Source: Magnetococcales bacterium
Lineage (GTDB): Bacteria > Pseudomonadota > Magnetococcia > Magnetococcales > Magnetaquicoccaceae
Assembly (NCBI GenBank): GCA_015231755.1
Contig: JADGAZ010000030.1
Span: 1 to 32,742 of the forward strand
Direction of reading: 5' to 3'
Length of the DNA: 32,742 bases
Each line of letters opens with the position of its first letter. The first letter of the stretch is position 1. The notes beneath the pieces are model-generated. The model ran no database searches and was not told the DNA's origin. It saw only the letters and a list, made by a program, of their open reading frames with translations. Shown piece by piece: positions 3,776-20,122 of the stretch. A program made the position numbers and the translations under genes.

Positions 3776-5736
3776 CACTTGTCGGCCAGGGCCACGACCG
3801 GGTCCAGGCTTGCGGCCTTGCGGGCTGGCATGAATCCAAAGAGCAGTCCCGTGGCCACGGCGAATCCAAAGGCCATGGCCACCGGGGCCGGAGAAAACAG
3901 CGCCGAGACGCCGAATTTGATGGCGATGAGGGCGGTCAGCAGACCACCGGCCACGCCGAGTACCCCGCCGAGCAGACAGACCACCAAAGCCTCGACGAGA
4001 AACTGAGTCATGATGTCTCGGCCTCGGGCGCCGACGGCTAGGCGGATGCCGATTTCCCGGGTGCGTTCCGTGACGCTCACCAGCATGATGTTCATCACGC
4101 CGATGCCCCCCACCAGCAGGGAGATGGCCGCGATGGAACCCAGCAGCAGGGTCATGGTGTTGTGGGTTTCGGTGGCAGTTTCCAGGATCGAGGCCATGTT
4201 GCGCACCTGGAAATCCACCGTCCGGTGACGGGCCGTGAGCAGGGTGGTGATGGCCTCTTGGGTGGCGTCGATGTTGCGGACATCCTCGACTTCCACATTG
4301 ATGGATCGCAGATGGTGTTGACCGAACAGTCTCAATCCGCCGGTGGACAGGGGCACGAGGATCACGTCATCCATGTCGGTGCCAAAGGGGGTGGCCCCCT
4401 TGGCGGTCATGACCCCAATCACCTGAAACGGAACGTTGTTGACCAGAAGTTGGTGTCCCAGGGGATCTTCGTCCGGGCCGAAGATGTTTTCCACCACGGT
4501 TTTGCCAAGCACCGCCACAGGGGCGTAACTCTTGACATCGTCGTCGGAAAAGAAAATGCCCCGTTCCACCGCCCAATCCCGGGCCACGGGGAATTCGGCG
4601 GTGGTGGCGGTGGTCGGGGTCTGGGAGTCGTTGCCGCCGGTACGCAAGGTGACGGCGCCATTCATTTCCGGTACCGCGTTGCGGACATTGGGCAGTCGGG
4701 CGATCTCTTCGGCGTCCTCCGGTACCAGGGTGGCCACCTGGGAGCCGGCGCCTCGCATGTTGGGGGCTCCGGCGCGGACCATGAGCAGATTGGTGCCCAT
4801 GGCCTGGATGCGGCCAAGCACATCCTGTTTGGCTCCGTCCCCCAGGGCCAGCATGGCCACCACCGAGCCTACCCCGATGATGATTCCCAGCAGGGTCAAC
4901 ACGGTGCGAAACAGATTGGCCTGGAGGGAATGGAGGGCGATCTTGATCGTTTCCCCCAGATCCATGACATGACCGGTCTTGTTTTTCGTTTTTTCCGAGG
5001 CGGCGGAGGTGATGGTTCCCGCTGGCGGGGTGTAGCCGGTATCCGAGACGATGAGACCATCGGCGATGGTGACCAGCCGTTTGGCCTCCCGGGCCACGGC
5101 GGGATCGTGGGTGATGAGGATGATGGTATGCCCTTCGTTGTTGAGCCGGTGCAACAGGGCGAGAATGTCCCGTCCTCCTTTGCTGTCCAGGGCGCCGGTG
5201 GGTTCGTCCGCCAGAATTACCCGACCGCCGTTGATCAGGGCACGGGCAATGGCCACCCGTTGTTGCTGTCCCCCGGAGAGCTGACTGGGGCGATGGGTCA
5301 GCCGTTCTCCCAGTCCCAGAGTGGTCAACAGTTCTTGGGCGCGGCGGGAGCGGTCGTGTTTGTTCAATCCGGCGTACATGGCCGGCATTTCCACGTTTTC
5401 CGCGCCGGTGGCGGTGGGCAGCAGGTTGTACTGCTGAAAGATGAATCCGAACACATTACGACGCAAGGCCGCCAGGGCGTCCCGATCCAGACCGGAGATG
5501 TCCTGGCCTTCCAGGAGCAGACGCCCACGGCTGGGACGATCCAGGCAGCCGATCAGGTTCATCAGGGTCGATTTGCCCGAGCCGGAGGATCCCATGATGG
5601 CCAGAAATTCACCCGGCCAGATGTTCAGGGAGACCCCGTGCAGCACATCCACCGTCAACGCGTCGGAGGTATAGCTTTTGTAGACCTGATCCAGCGTGAT
5701 GATCGGTTGGGGCAGGTCGTTGGGTGGGTTGGTCAT
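3775..5736 (-). CDS. macB: MacB-type ABC exporter, ATPase-permease fusion
   Basis: The 653-residue protein is an inner-membrane half transporter. The N-terminal ATPase has Walker A GSSGSGKST (49-57), signature LSGGQQQR, Walker B VILADEPTGALDS and a switch histidine in LITHDP. After a linker come one membrane segment (about 275-298), a large periplasmic MacB core domain and three C-terminal segments with the FtsX-type SVTERTREIGIRLAVGAR. MacB dimers work by mechanotransmission, moving substrates from the periplasm through MacA and an outer-membrane duct. Its start overlaps the macA stop by four bases (ATGA) and its stop overlaps nodT by one. Macrolide export is the name-giving activity; peptides, lipoproteins or siderophores are equally possible. 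Confidence 0.95.
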   Translation of the reverse strand: MTNPPNDLPQPIITLDQVYKSYTSDALTVDVLHGVSLNIWPGEFLAIMGSSGSGKSTLMNLIGCLDRPSRGRLLLEGQDISGLDRDALAALRRNVFGFIFQQYNLLPTATGAENVEMPAMYAGLNKHDRSRRAQELLTTLGLGERLTHRPSQLSGGQQQRVAIARALINGGRVILADEPTGALDSKGGRDILALLHRLNNEGHTIILITHDPAVAREAKRLVTIADGLIVSDTGYTPPAGTITSAASEKTKNKTGHVMDLGETIKIALHSLQANLFRTVLTLLGIIIGVGSVVAMLALGDGAKQDVLGRIQAMGTNLLMVRAGAPNMRGAGSQVATLVPEDAEEIARLPNVRNAVPEMNGAVTLRTGGNDSQTPTTATTAEFPVARDWAVERGIFFSDDDVKSYAPVAVLGKTVVENIFGPDEDPLGHQLLVNNVPFQVIGVMTAKGATPFGTDMDDVILVPLSTGGLRLFGQHHLRSINVEVEDVRNIDATQEAITTLLTARHRTVDFQVRNMASILETATETHNTMTLLLGSIAAISLLVGGIGVMNIMLVSVTERTREIGIRLAVGARGRDIMTQFLVEALVVCLLGGVLGVAGGLLTALIAIKFGVSALFSPAPVAMAFGFAVATGLLFGFMPARKAASLDPVVALADK

Positions 5737-14926: not shown

Positions 14927-17332
14927 ATGAAGAGTCTGTTCGCCATAAAGGATTGGGGGTTGCGCACCACGATGATCGCCATGGTGGCGGCGCTGCTAGT
15001 GGCATCGTTGGCCGGTGGGGGATTGTTGATCTACAGCCTGCGGTCCACGGTGGGGGATTATACGGATATTCTTCAAGTTGTTGATCGTTTCAAGGACACC
15101 ACCCACCACATGAATACCCTGATGCTCCAGGCCCGCCGGAGCGAAAAGGATTTCCTGTTGAACCGGGAAGCCAAGGATGTGGAACGGCTGGTGCAGGTGA
15201 CCCAGGATCTGGAAAAAGAGGCCGGTCTGGCATGGGAGTTGGCCAACCATCCGGTGATCGCCGACGCCAAAGATCAGGGACATGCCCGGCGCATCCAGGA
15301 GATCGCGGTGCGTTACCGGGGCGCGTTTCTGGAGGTGGTCAAGGCCGTTCAGGTCAGCGGCGGGGATCACTCCGGGACGGTGGTGAATCCGAAAATCGAG
15401 GCCATGCGGGTCACGGTGCGGGAGATCGAGCCTTTGGTCGAGGAGATGTCGGAGCGGATCGAGGCGCGATCCCGTCAGATGCAAGAGCGAATCGGCGTCC
15501 GTTCCTCCCAGTGGATGCAGGCCGCCTTGTGGCTGTTCGGCGTGTTGAGTCTCGTGTCTTTGGGGTTTGCGGTATCGGGTGTGCGGCGGGTGTTGCGTCA
15601 GATCGGGGGTGAGCCGGTCGAGGTGAGTCATCTGGTGGCGCGGATCGCCGCCGGGGATTTGACCATCCGGGGAGGTGGTGTGGGTGGTGGCCTGTTGGGA
15701 GAGATCGAAACCATGGCCGCCCGGCTGCGGGACATGATCACCCTGATCCGGTTGCAAGGCATGTCCACGCTGCCGCCGGTGAGCGAGCAGATCGCCAAGG
15801 CCGTGGAGCGGTTGACCCTGGTGGCCGACGATGTGCGGTGCAGCACGGTGAATGCCCAGGAGAGCAACACCCGCCTGGAGAACCTGATCCGCGAACAGGT
15901 CAAGTCCGGAGCGGAATACATCGTCTTTTCCATGGCGGATATCGGTCAGGCGGTGGCCGAGCAGTCGAAGGCGGCCAGCACGGTCTCCTGCGCTGCCGAG
16001 GAGGGGAGCGCCAATACCACCACCCTGGCGGCAGCCGCCGAGCAGATCAGCGTCAATGTGGGGGAGGTGAACCACAGTTTGCAGGAAGTGGGTCTCATGA
16101 TCGATAACGTGGCATCGAGCATGGCCCGCATGACCCGCAGCCAGGAGGCGGTGCGGGAGCGTTGCCGCATTGCCGACGCCGAGGCCAGCCGCGCCACCTC
16201 CCGGGCGCAAAACGGCCATCAGGTGATGGAACAGCTCACCCTTTCCGCCGAGCAGATCGGGCAGATCGTGCAAACCATCAACCACATTGCCGAGCAGACC
16301 AACATGCTCGCCTTGAACGCCTCCATCGAGGCGGCGGGAGCCGGAGACGCGGGCAAAGGTTTCGCGGTGGTGGCCAACGAGGTCAAGGCCCTGGCCCGGC
16401 AGACCGCCGAAGCCACCGAGGATATCGGCAATCGCATCTACGAAATTCAAGGTCACGCCCACGAGGCGGCCAGAACCGTGGAGGCGATCACCACGGCCAT
16501 CGAGCGACTCGCGGAGGTCAACCGGGAGATCGTCACCGCCGCCGACGAGCAATCCCTGGCGGCCAACGAGATTGCCGCTTCCATGGACGGAGTGACCCGT
16601 GCGGCGGCGGTGGTGATGCACGGGTCGGAAGAACTGGGGGCTTCGGTCAACGAGATCGCCCGGACTGCCAACGAGCTGGGCAACGGCTCCCGGGAGTTGG
16701 CCGCCACGGCCACGATGATGGCCGCCTCCATCGAGCAGACCGCCACCCAGGCGGGTCAATCCAACACCCTGGCCCAGGCGATGTTGTCCACCGTGGGTCA
16801 GACCGTGCAGGCCTCCCAGTCGATGCGGGAGAACATGGAGCAGACCCGTTCCGCCTCCCATCGTCTCGAAGCCACGGCCCATACCATCACCTTGCTGATC
16901 GACGCCTTGAGCAGCGTTTCCGACCGTCTGCATGCGGTTCAGGCCAACTTGAACACCGGAGCGGCCCCTTTCGACATGCTGCGGGTCAAGACCGCCCATC
17001 TGGAATGGCTGCGCAAGCTGGAAGCCATGATCAACGGCGAGGGGGTGATGAGTCCCGAGGAGGCCTGCGACGTGAAAGGGTGTCAACTGGGCCAATGGTT
17101 CTACGCGCCGGAAGGGGGCGGACGTTTTTCCACCCTGTCCGCCTATGACACGGTGGATGTGGCCCATCGGGCGGTCCACGAATTGGCCGCTTCCATCATT
17201 CGCTCCCATGGGGAGGGCAAGCCGGTGCAGGGGGAATTGCAGCGGTTCAACCGATTGCGCGACCAGTTGTTCATTGAACTGGATGGCCTTTACATCGAGG
17301 CGGCGCGGGAGTGGGACGGGGATGAGTCATGA
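14927..17332 (+). CDS. Methyl-accepting chemotaxis protein with C-terminal CZB domain
   Basis: The 801-residue receptor has TM1 (about 12-38, [21 protein letters not shown]), a periplasmic helical sensor (40-190), TM2 (194-216, [20 protein letters not shown]), a HAMP region (about 216-270), and a signalling coiled coil with the conserved tip near residue 459 ([23 protein letters not shown]). A C-terminal chemoreceptor zinc-binding domain (about 681-790) has [17 protein letters not shown] and VAHRAVHEL as predicted zinc ligands. CZB domains sense zinc or hypochlorous acid in the cytoplasm. A coiled-coil segment rich in Met/Gln follows HAMP. ATG 14927 directly precedes TM1; its ribosome site is weak. 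It overlaps the next gene by four bases. Confidence 0.93.
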
Positions 17333-17640
17333 CCTTGCCGGGGTTGCCTGCGTTGCGGTTCATCGAAACCCTGAAGGGGTTGCCCTTTGTGGAGGCGATC
17401 TATCTGTACGGCTCCCGGGCGCACGGAACCCACGGTCCCCGTGCGGATATCGATTTGGCGATTTGGTGTCCTGGCGCCACGCCGGGGGAGTGGCGGCGGG
17501 TTCTGGAGATTGTGGAAGATGCGGATACGTTGCTTGAAATCGACTGCCTGCGTCTGGACGCGGAACCCGAGACCAGCCGCTTGCGTCGTCACATCGAGCA
17601 GGACCGGGTGGTGATTCATGTCCGCAATCCTGGAGCGTGA
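17329..17640 (+). CDS. MntA-like minimal nucleotidyltransferase (HEPN partner)
   Basis: The 103-residue protein is a minimal DNA polymerase beta-fold nucleotidyltransferase with GSRAHG (G28-S29) followed by the D-x-D metal ligands D40 and D42 in ADIDLA and a third Asp in LEIDC (D72). In type VII toxin-antitoxin pairs such proteins AMPylate and silence a HEPN ribonuclease encoded beside them. All catalytic residues appear intact. The ATG overlaps the chemoreceptor stop by four bases (ATGA), so its translation is coupled to a receptor gene, which is unusual. The HEPN-like gene starts 23 bases before its end. Confidence 0.85.
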
Positions 17641-17953
17641 GCGGCTGGAGTGTTCCTTGGAGGCGTGGGGACGGGCTTTGGATCGTCTGGAGGAGGCTTT
17701 GTCCTTGCCACCCGGCACCCCTTTGTTGATCGACGGGGTGACGCAGCGTTTTGAGTTCTGTTTCGAGTTGACCTGGAAAACCTTGAAACTGGCCTTGTTG
17801 CAGGGGCACGGTTTTGATGTGGTCTCCCCGAAGCAGAGTCTGCAAAAGGCGTTCGCGGTGGCGTGGCTGGAGGATGATCGGGTGTGGCTGGAGATGCTCA
17901 AGGATCGCAATCATGATGAGAATAATGCAATCGATGATTCAAATTGTCTATAA
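17618..17953 (+). CDS. HEPN-like nucleotidyltransferase partner, apparently truncated
   Basis: The 111-residue protein matches the nucleotidyltransferase substrate-binding (HI0074-like HEPN) family through RFEFCFELTWKTLKLAL, SPKQSLQKAFA and WLEMLKDRN. Family members normally continue with a DRNxxxHxYDE motif, the RX4HXY site that is the toxin active centre and AMPylation target, then two more helices. Here the chain reads DRN-H-DENNA (R97, N98, H99) and stops nine residues later. This fits an in-frame loss of about five residues plus a later frameshift: the -1 frame continues through IQIVYKRNF before stopping. DNA from about 17900 onward is AT-rich. The protein may be a non-toxic remnant. Confidence 0.75.
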   Translation: MSAILERERLECSLEAWGRALDRLEEALSLPPGTPLLIDGVTQRFEFCFELTWKTLKLALLQGHGFDVVSPKQSLQKAFAVAWLEDDRVWLEMLKDRNHDENNAIDDSNCL

Positions 17954-18039: not shown

Positions 18040-18672
18040 TTAGGAGCGGGCTCGTTTGCCTCCTGAAGCCGCCGCAACGGCGTCGTGAAAGGCCTGGAAA
18101 CTGCGCGAGGTGTTGCGGGCAGGCTCCATATGCCGGGCAACGGCTCGGGCGCATTCCAACTTCCGAAGTCCGGTATTGAAATAACCCGCCTTCTTCAAGA
18201 CATCCTCCAGAGACTCCCAGGTTCCACCCGAAATGGCATCTGGATCGCGATAGCGTGCCTTGTTCGGAATCGTGGTGGACACTTTTGGGTAGGCGGTCTG
18301 CACCGCTGGCCAGTCGCCAAAGAACCAGGACTCCAACTCTTCGATGGCAATTCTGTTGGCAACCTGAAAGCGATGCATGCTGCCGGCAGCCGTTTTGGTC
18401 ATCAGTCCGGCTTGTCGTGCCATGTTCTCCAGTTGTTGCTTCAACATGATGCAATCGTCATGATCACGATCCACCAATACCAGAATCGTCCAGGTTTCAG
18501 GCATCCAGGCCGCATATCCGGCCAGTCGTTTCGGCAGATTTTTCATGAGATCGTTTTTGCATTGGAAGCGTCGAATCTCAAAATCGGTATCCCCCAATAT
18601 CTTGGGCAGAAGGTGTTCCAAGGCGGCTTCCATCGAGTATTCCTCGACGAAAACAATCATCTTTTCAAGCAT
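18040..18672 (-). CDS. DUF4276 protein, TOPRIM-like, partner of the upstream ATPase
   Basis: The 210-residue protein matches DUF4276. Its N-terminal strand carries Glu (IVFVEEYSMEAAL, E10/E11) and a second strand ends in an Asp-x-Asp (ILVLVDRDHDDC, D68 and D70). This is the acidic arrangement of TOPRIM nuclease and primase domains. A conserved IEELESWFFGD block follows and the C-terminus is basic. The ATG shares one base with the ATPase stop (TGATG). Separate ATPase and TOPRIM-like subunits recall OLD-type and PARIS-like anti-phage systems. Nuclease function is inference; the family assignment is fairly firm. Confidence 0.8.
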   Translation of the reverse strand: MLEKMIVFVEEYSMEAALEHLLPKILGDTDFEIRRFQCKNDLMKNLPKRLAGYAAWMPETWTILVLVDRDHDDCIMLKQQLENMARQAGLMTKTAAGSMHRFQVANRIAIEELESWFFGDWPAVQTAYPKVSTTIPNKARYRDPDAISGGTWESLEDVLKKAGYFNTGLRKLECARAVARHMEPARNTSRSFQAFHDAVAAASGGKRARS

Positions 18673-19916
18673 CAAGTGCGTCTCCTCTTGTGGAGGGGTG
18701 GCGCTCCCTGGTTGATCAGTGGGTCACCCAGGCCAAAATGGCCCTCCATCCAGAGAAAGCCCAGTGACGCACCTTCGCGGATGAACTGAGGAATGCCTTG
18801 AATATCGCTGGCGCGAACAGCCTGAGTGAAGCCGTGATCATCGCGGTACAGCACGCGTACCTCTTCGGCACGCATGGCATTGATCAGAAAGGGCGAGTGG
18901 CTGGTGATCAGCATCTGCGCGTGCTCGGACGCTGCGCGGCACTCTTCTGCCAGTTCTGGCAACAGGCGCGGATGCAAGAAATTTTCTGGTTCCTCGATGC
19001 CGATGAAACGCGGCGGTTCCGGGTCGTGGAGTACCGTCAGGTAGGCCAGCATTTTCATGGTGCCGTCAGAGGCGAATTTGGAAAGGATTTGTTGCTCAAA
19101 AGGTGCATCCTTGATTTGGAGCAGCAAGCGTCCATCCGGCATGGGATCCGCTTCGACGCGCTCCAGACGTGGAATGCGCTGGCGCAAGACGCTGAAAATG
19201 TGTTCCAGTCGCTCCGGGTGTTGTTCTTTCAGATGTTGAATGACGTTGGCCAGGTTTTCCCCGCCCTTGCTCAAACGTTCTTGAGGGCCCGCTTCGGGCT
19301 GATTGCGGGTTTGATCGATCGAGAGATAAGAGACATACCAGTCGGTGATGAATTCGCGCAAAGCCGCCACTCTCGGGTGTTCGGCCAACTGCCCCAGGGT
19401 GTTGGCCGCGATCAGGTCCGGTGCGCGCAGGGTGGATTCTCTGCGTTGATCCTCCTCGTCTGGCCGTTCCCCGCTTACCGCACGGCCTACGCCTCGACGG
19501 AATTCCAGGAATCGAAACGGTTGGTCTGTTGTGCCACGTCGCCATTGCAGCCACTCTTCGATGACTTCTGGACCTTTGGTCCCTTCATCGATCGCCAGAT
19601 GATAGGTGATTATCGGAGTCTTGGGGCGTTCCCGATACTTCAAATCAAAGACGATGGGACCGCTTGAGCCTCGGGTCTTCAGTTCCTTTCCCCGGCCTCG
19701 CCGATCCCATGCGTGGCGCAGACCAAACTGGAAGCATTCGGAAAGGAAATTGAATACATCAAAAATGGTTGACTTTCCGCTGCCATTGGGCCCAAGCAGG
19801 ATTGTGATCGGAGTCAGGTTATCGAATTCCACCTTGTGCAAAGCACGGTAATTCGTAACCCGCACAGATTCAATGCGAGGAATTCCTCTGTGGTCGGGTT
19901 CATGGGGATGACTCAT
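18672..19916 (-). CDS. OLD/ABC-like AAA ATPase, likely defence-related
   Basis: The 414-residue protein is a soluble SMC/ABC-type ATPase of the AAA_21/COG4637 kind. It has [19 protein letters not shown] at the N-terminus, Walker [10 protein letters not shown] (42-50), a [12 protein letters not shown] segment, the signature-like SDGTMKML, Walker [14 protein letters not shown] (304-316) and the switch TSHSPFLI (338-345). There are no membrane segments. Related ATPases sense phage components and drive nuclease partners. The next gene encodes a TOPRIM-like protein with a one-base overlap, so they probably form one complex. ATG 19916 has a GAAAG site just upstream; a TTG at 19934 is an alternative. 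No clear promoter was seen. Confidence 0.85.
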
Positions 19917-19976
19917 TTCTTTCACCGGTTTCAAACCGCGTCCATTTCGGGATACGTTGTTTTGCTGAACAGGGGT

Positions 19977-20019
19977 CCAGGGGGATTATCCTCCTGGTGG
20001 GATCCAAGGGCGAAGCCCT
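19977..20019. repeat. REP-like intergenic hairpin pair
   Basis: CCAGGGGGA-TTA-TCCTCCTGG (19977-19997) forms a 9-bp stem with one G-T pair, and AGGGC-GAA-GCCCT (20007-20019) a smaller stem just after it. The first shares its core with the terminator hairpin at 20067-20088. This dyad style recurs in intergenic DNA of some GC-rich proteobacteria. It lies upstream of the ATPase gene. Confidence 0.6.
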
Positions 20020-20066
20020 ATTCTCAAGCCATGTGTTGGAAATAGTGTGTTAGTCAAAGTCAAAAC

Positions 20067-20088
20067 CCTGGGGGATGAATCCCCCAGG
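20067..20088 (-). terminator. Terminator of lolA-yajQ-rimO, bidirectional by shape
   Basis: CCTGGGGGA-TGAA-TCCCCCAGG is a perfect 9-bp hairpin 35 bases beyond the rimO stop. On the minus strand a GTTTTGACTTTG tract follows it; on the plus strand an eight-T run lies at 20096-20103. It therefore could stop transcription from either side. Confidence 0.75.
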
Positions 20089-20122
20089 CCCTCTCTTTTT
20101 TTTCACCAGTTTGGATGGGCTG

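Follow-up and report, generated by a model that had tools for sequence, protein, structure and literature searches.

Background

In the OLD family, Classes 1 to 3 carry the ATPase and the Toprim domain fused in one chain. For the Class 2 protein of Burkholderia (BpOLD) the metal ligands and the lysine have been assigned to E400, D455, D457, T506/E508, and K562 (PMC6755086). PARIS (AriA/AriB), ranked as Class 4 OLD, consists of an OLD-type ATPase and a separate Toprim effector encoded in one operon and is used here as functional model (PMC12409363). WonAB from the WASA prophage of Vibrio cholerae is likewise a two-gene system of an OLD-ABC ATPase and a nuclease, and it has been shown experimentally that its abortive infection requires both proteins (PMC12137116). 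In BREX loci, Toprim-linked OLD-ABC modules have been described as backup effectors (PMC12839542). Hma-embedded candidates, abbreviated HEC, go back to a 2024 preprint by Payne et al., cited in PMC12988326; the latter article states that protection was shown for several HECs, including HEC-06.

The window analysed here, a stretch of 32,742 nucleotides from a Magnetococcales bacterium, contains an ATPase gene followed by a gene of the DUF4276 family. A sequence-only reading had proposed the two as a candidate two-gene defence system, a split OLD-like or PARIS-like module with DUF4276 as effector. In the analyses described below, the defence reading gained support from genomic contexts, but the pair does not represent a new kind of candidate, as it has an entry in PADLOC under the name HEC-01.

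Results and discussion

A gene pair matching the candidate system HEC-01

The pair is arranged as follows:

19916-18672, minus strand: ATPase gene, OLD/SMC-type ABC, HEC-01A-like, 414 aa (PADLOC, Pfam, motifs)
18672-18040, minus strand: DUF4276 gene, HEC-01B-like, 210 aa (PADLOC, Pfam, predicted model, residue conservation)
18670-18674, minus strand: TGATG, ATPase stop and DUF4276 start sharing one base (sequence)

The ABC/SMC-type ATPase with a one-base overlap to DUF4276 had been recognized before, and both minus-strand frames as well as TGATG, in which base 18672 is common to the two frames, were confirmed. Starting DUF4276 at a TTG at 18675 would extend the overlap to four bases, and an alternative upstream TTG start of the ATPase is possible at 19934. 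The one-base overlap suggests translational coupling of the two genes; tight or overlapping junctions recur in homologues.

PADLOC searches matched the ATPase to the HEC-01A model (E 2.1e-157) and the DUF4276 protein, whose gene adjoins that of the HEC-01A-like ATPase, to HEC-01B (E 1.8e-87). The corresponding Pfam hits were AAA_21 (E 7.5e-28) and DUF4276 (E 9.4e-33). Judged by these matches, the pair is a member of the catalogued PADLOC candidate defence system HEC-01. A literature search yielded HEC-01 in one paper, only as a detected system, and no mention of DUF4276 by name. In Pfam, AAA_21 is described as a 'putative AbiEii toxin', which could also be taken to indicate a toxin-antitoxin system; this reading was discarded, since the ATPase fits HEC-01A much better.

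The motifs described earlier are all present in the ATPase: Walker A (GPNGSGKS, residues 42-49), the signature (SDGT, residues 283-286), Walker B/D-loop with E308/E309, and the switch (TSHSP, H340). Across 10 ATPases with identities down to 40%, none of these four motifs varies in its core residues. The predicted model (pLDDT 74) matched PtuA, SMC, and OLD ATPases, the best Foldseek matches being to PtuA. The ATPase is regarded as the putative sensor or regulator of the pair.

DUF4276 is predicted to be an OLD-type Toprim nuclease

A model of the DUF4276 protein was built from six sequences and reached a pLDDT of 83.8 and a pTM of 0.82. Foldseek comparison with the Protein Data Bank gave a sole match below 0.001, the C-terminal nuclease region of Burkholderia OLD (6nk8, E 7.7e-4, probability 1.00). 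A second aligner also placed Burkholderia OLD on top (Z 10.3 over 170 residues), next to Xanthomonas OLD (Z 10.1). PARIS AriB (8ux9) followed at lower rank with Z 8.7 over 159 residues, values of 7 to 9 being weak by themselves, and Gabija GajA with Z 7.2, which alone means little because Z below 8 can reflect a common arrangement. The predicted fold thus finds its counterparts in the Toprim domains of OLD, PARIS, and Gabija. In the model, which is a prediction and not a solved structure, E10 follows the strand 4-9 and D68 the strand 61-67, the Toprim arrangement; this agrees with the strand order of the acidic residues read from the sequence. The fold assignment relies on structure comparison, because profiles of DUF4276 searched against solved structures gave no significant OLD or Toprim match. 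A viral library of predicted structures contained no match to the model.

A solved hypothetical protein from Pyrococcus, PH0156 (PDB 2p62), also aligns to the DUF4276 model (Z 8.9). Its sequence match runs through the first glutamate and is below significance (E 0.42). PH0156 may be another Toprim relative.

Among 42 DUF4276 homologues, E10, D68, and E114 are invariant, an acidic residue stands at the position of E112 in 40, and 39 have a lysine at that of K171. Of the residues singled out before, E10/E11 and D68-x-D70, E10 and D68 are thus corroborated, but E11 is not, position 11 being mostly glycine (28 of 42). D70 holds for close relatives only: it is kept in all 11 of these and in 15 of 26 sequences of one alignment (A1), the count being higher in the alignment of 42 homologues because gaps are placed differently there, and distant subfamilies have lost the second D of DxD. 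E112/E114 and K171, which had been overlooked, are as well or better conserved. Order and spacing of E10, D68, D70, E112/E114, and K171 correspond to E400, D455, D457, T506/E508, and K562 of BpOLD, with numbering offsets of 390, 387, 387, 394, 394, and 391 (range 387-394). Position 14, the counterpart of the second glutamate of BpOLD, E404, is glutamate in 26 of the 42 homologues but methionine in the protein from the window. From the model and the residue order, DUF4276 is predicted to be an OLD-type Toprim nuclease with E10, D68, D70, E112/E114, and K171 as its putative catalytic set. A Pfam domain of unknown function has thereby obtained a predicted fold and a catalytic set that can be tested.

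Pairing and distribution

That the pair should be conserved elsewhere is borne out. By automatic count, an ATPase gene lies directly upstream of 61 out of 62 distinct DUF4276 genes, and after trimming of its start the last one has a related upstream ATPase as well (62/62). Pairwise distances of ATPases and DUF4276 proteins are correlated with r = 0.95, a value reached in none of 2000 permutations. Pair loci are found in Pseudomonadota, Spirochaetota, Acidobacteriota, Deinococcota, and Cyanobacteriota. Any DUF4276 gene is present in 64 of 398 genomes of the phylum and none in 14 well-known control genomes, and close relatives are distributed patchily across sister genomes. One pair resides inside the transfer region of a conjugative Pseudomonas plasmid, and another belongs to a phage-like region on a plasmid from Rahnella. 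In viral contigs, a scan with the single protein detected no relative, and alignment-based scans a few.

DUF4276 is common in the order to which the window belongs: 41 of 61 relatives, mostly from that order, carry it, some in 6 or 7 copies. A second ATPase-DUF4276 pair, more distant, lies on another contig of the window's own genome (C15, locus L037, 7794-9899).

Defence genes next to related pairs

Six out of twelve close relatives of the pair flank or lie within BREX, type I, or type IIG restriction loci:

L033, Endozoicomonas: pair flanked by PglX and PglZ within a BREX operon
L034, Rhodocyclaceae genome: pair upstream of PglZ and BrxL
L035, Spirochaetota genome: pair directly after a type IIG enzyme
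L049, L057, and L062: pairs adjacent to hsdR within type I restriction operons

A more distant pair (L048) is located after a type I R-like gene. At L035, a second ABC ATPase gene (4456-5736) is present 3' of the pair, weakly related to the ATPase profile (E 1.4e-5). Among 96 neighbouring ORFs, PADLOC matches comprised REase_I (3), HsdS (3), PglX (2), PglZ (2), and BrxL (2). The 92 control ORFs, taken from random stretches of pair-bearing genomes, gave three PADLOC matches at 1e-20, none of them to restriction or BREX models; this contrast is to be read as an indication and not as a probability, because the control genomes are not identical to the genomes of all neighbours. Proximity to known defence genes, named beforehand as a check, was thus observed, and these contexts support a defence role of the pair. 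Recurring as they do within BREX and restriction operons, such pairs may form a backup layer which fires once restriction is blocked.

A specific version of this idea is that HEC-01 guards restriction: the ATPase would respond to phage proteins directed against methylation-based defence, or to the enzymes that these have put out of action, and then fire the Toprim effector. We consider this version speculative and rather unlikely. If true, it would account for close relatives being embedded in type I restriction and BREX operons, and guarding in the manner of PARIS would be a general task shared by several distinct ATPase-nuclease pairs.

The module occupies a variable site beside rimO

In the genome of the window, the module is located outside any restriction locus. 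The chemoreceptor side and the rimO side of its setting had been noted before, but a further gene pair on the former and repeats on the latter have to be added:

17329-17953, plus strand: MntA-like nucleotidyltransferase gene and HepT/HI0074-like partner (Pfam, E 2e-11 and 1e-18)
19970-20019 and 20056-20105, no strand assigned: dispersed repeat copies of about 50 bp each, between module and rimO (genome matches)

The module therefore lies between rimO and the MntA/HepT-like pair, which follows the chemoreceptor gene and overlaps its end. The HepT-like frame ends early, after KDRNHDENNAIDDSNCL, and covers positions 3-92 of the 126 of the profile; judged by its sequence, the gene may be truncated or decayed. 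GC content of the module is about 0.55, compared to 0.60-0.65 around it. A search of the genome with the intergenic stretch beside rimO gave 63 matches, many of which form inverted pairs spaced by about 100 bp; the second copy (20056-20105) carries the palindrome CCTGGGGGATGAATCCCCCAGG. The dispersed repeat is REP/BIME-like. An Rfam scan of the window revealed no RNA gene and hence gave no hint of a retron RNA or another known RNA partner.

The nearest relative within the genus (G006), whose RimO is 99% identical, lacks the HEC-01 module downstream of rimO. Its DNA matches the window only down to position 20057, a break that falls inside the repeat stretch, and a Septu system (L098, 83-2019; PtuA E 5e-115, PtuB E 6e-31) is found 97 bp after rimO on the same strand. 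In a third member of the genus (G008), a C-terminal fragment of PtuA is present downstream of rimO (L102, 3780-4442). The site downstream of rimO is thus likely an exchange slot for defence modules in the genus, and one may guess that recombination at the dispersed repeat served as exchange route. Occupied by HEC-01 in one genome and by Septu in a sister, the slot is a place where more defence systems of the genus could be found.

Proposed function

Taken together, the pair is probably a two-gene abortive-infection antiviral module of the HEC-01 type, composed of an OLD-ABC ATPase and a Toprim nuclease; we assign this reading a probability of about 0.72. The ATPase would dimerise or oligomerise and hold DUF4276 inactive in a complex, perhaps via its conserved C-terminal tail, in which W389 and D398 are invariant. 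Upon sensing a trigger derived from a phage or another element, it would free or activate DUF4276, which would cut nucleic acid with two metal ions, and the cell would stop before making phage. As to the target, host tRNA or other RNA appears somewhat likelier than DNA, a guess by analogy with the split-gene relatives PARIS, retron-Eco7/Septu, and WonAB, all of which target tRNA or translation.

A possible but less probable reading is that the pair protects the cell chiefly through destruction of incoming DNA, the mode of the fused OLD and Gabija nucleases, and not by cutting host RNA and arresting the infected cell. The nearest folds to DUF4276 are C-terminal regions of OLD proteins, and its putative active site agrees with that of the DNA-cleaving Burkholderia OLD, down to the lysine on which processive cutting depends. 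However, the same residue set is present in RNase M5, AriB also scores well against the model, and in the split relatives it is the separate effectors, AriB, PtuB of retron-Eco7 Septu, and WonB, that act on tRNA or translation.

The pairs in the transfer region of the Pseudomonas plasmid and in the phage-like region of the Rahnella plasmid, together with the MntA/HepT pair next to the module in the window, could point to a module that serves mobile elements in conflicts or for their stability, either against plasmids or as an addiction pair of the toxin-antitoxin kind, without a main anti-phage role. Such a function is improbable in view of the BREX and restriction operons that flank or include half of the twelve close relatives and of the rimO slot shared with Septu. 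Still less probable is a housekeeping pair for DNA repair or the cell cycle, with a RecF/Rad50-like ATPase and a Toprim protein. An OLD-family protein with a cell-cycle role, archaeal Cran1, does exist, and the ATPase resembles SMC/Rad50 heads in its fold, but against a housekeeping function stand the patchy occurrence of close relatives in sister genomes, the 64 of 398 phylum genomes with any DUF4276, the absence of the module downstream of rimO in the nearest relative, and the absence of the family from the 14 control genomes. An antiviral module acting by abortive infection remains the preferred interpretation.

Comparison with known systems

The closest structural counterpart of DUF4276 is Class 2 OLD, represented by GajA and Burkholderia OLD, in which E, DxD, xE, and K occur in the same order and spacing. 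In contrast to the fused chains of Classes 1 to 3, the window encodes ATPase and Toprim protein by two separate genes, and no UvrD-like helicase gene adjoins them as in Class 2. PARIS shares the split organization in one operon, and the predicted DUF4276 fold matches AriB, but the effector is shorter (210 versus about 305 residues) and has no AriB model among its PADLOC matches at a threshold of E 0.1. The ATPase matches the general AriA model at 6e-28, far under its HEC-01A match. Of the suggested OLD-like or PARIS-like module, the pair of OLD-type ATPase and predicted Toprim effector is retained; membership in PARIS itself was rejected, the effector being a DUF4276 protein without AriB match.

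MADS was considered as well. The ATPase matches MAD3 (NCBIfam, E 3e-34) with 118.9 bits, far under the cut-off of 420, a MAD4 match is seen at E 0.039 only (PADLOC), and no other mad genes were found among the neighbours scanned in the window. Membership in MADS was dismissed on the low MAD3 score and the missing partner genes. MADS includes the methyltransferase- and specificity-like genes mad2 and mad5, and the restriction genes that adjoin the pair in L062 match these too.

WonAB resembles the pair in its two-gene organization, but WonB is a PD-(D/E)xK nuclease and not a predicted Toprim protein. Septu is related by the ATPase fold of PtuA and uses the same rimO slot in the sister genome; its PtuB is an HNH nuclease, unlike the predicted Toprim effector. 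By analogy, the module is best read as working like PARIS or WonAB yet belonging to neither. With HEC-01 it shares matches of both genes to the models and their side-by-side arrangement, but the pair in the window stands alone and is not embedded in Hma or another system. To this catalogued kind, the present analysis adds a predicted catalytic assignment and the rimO exchange slot.
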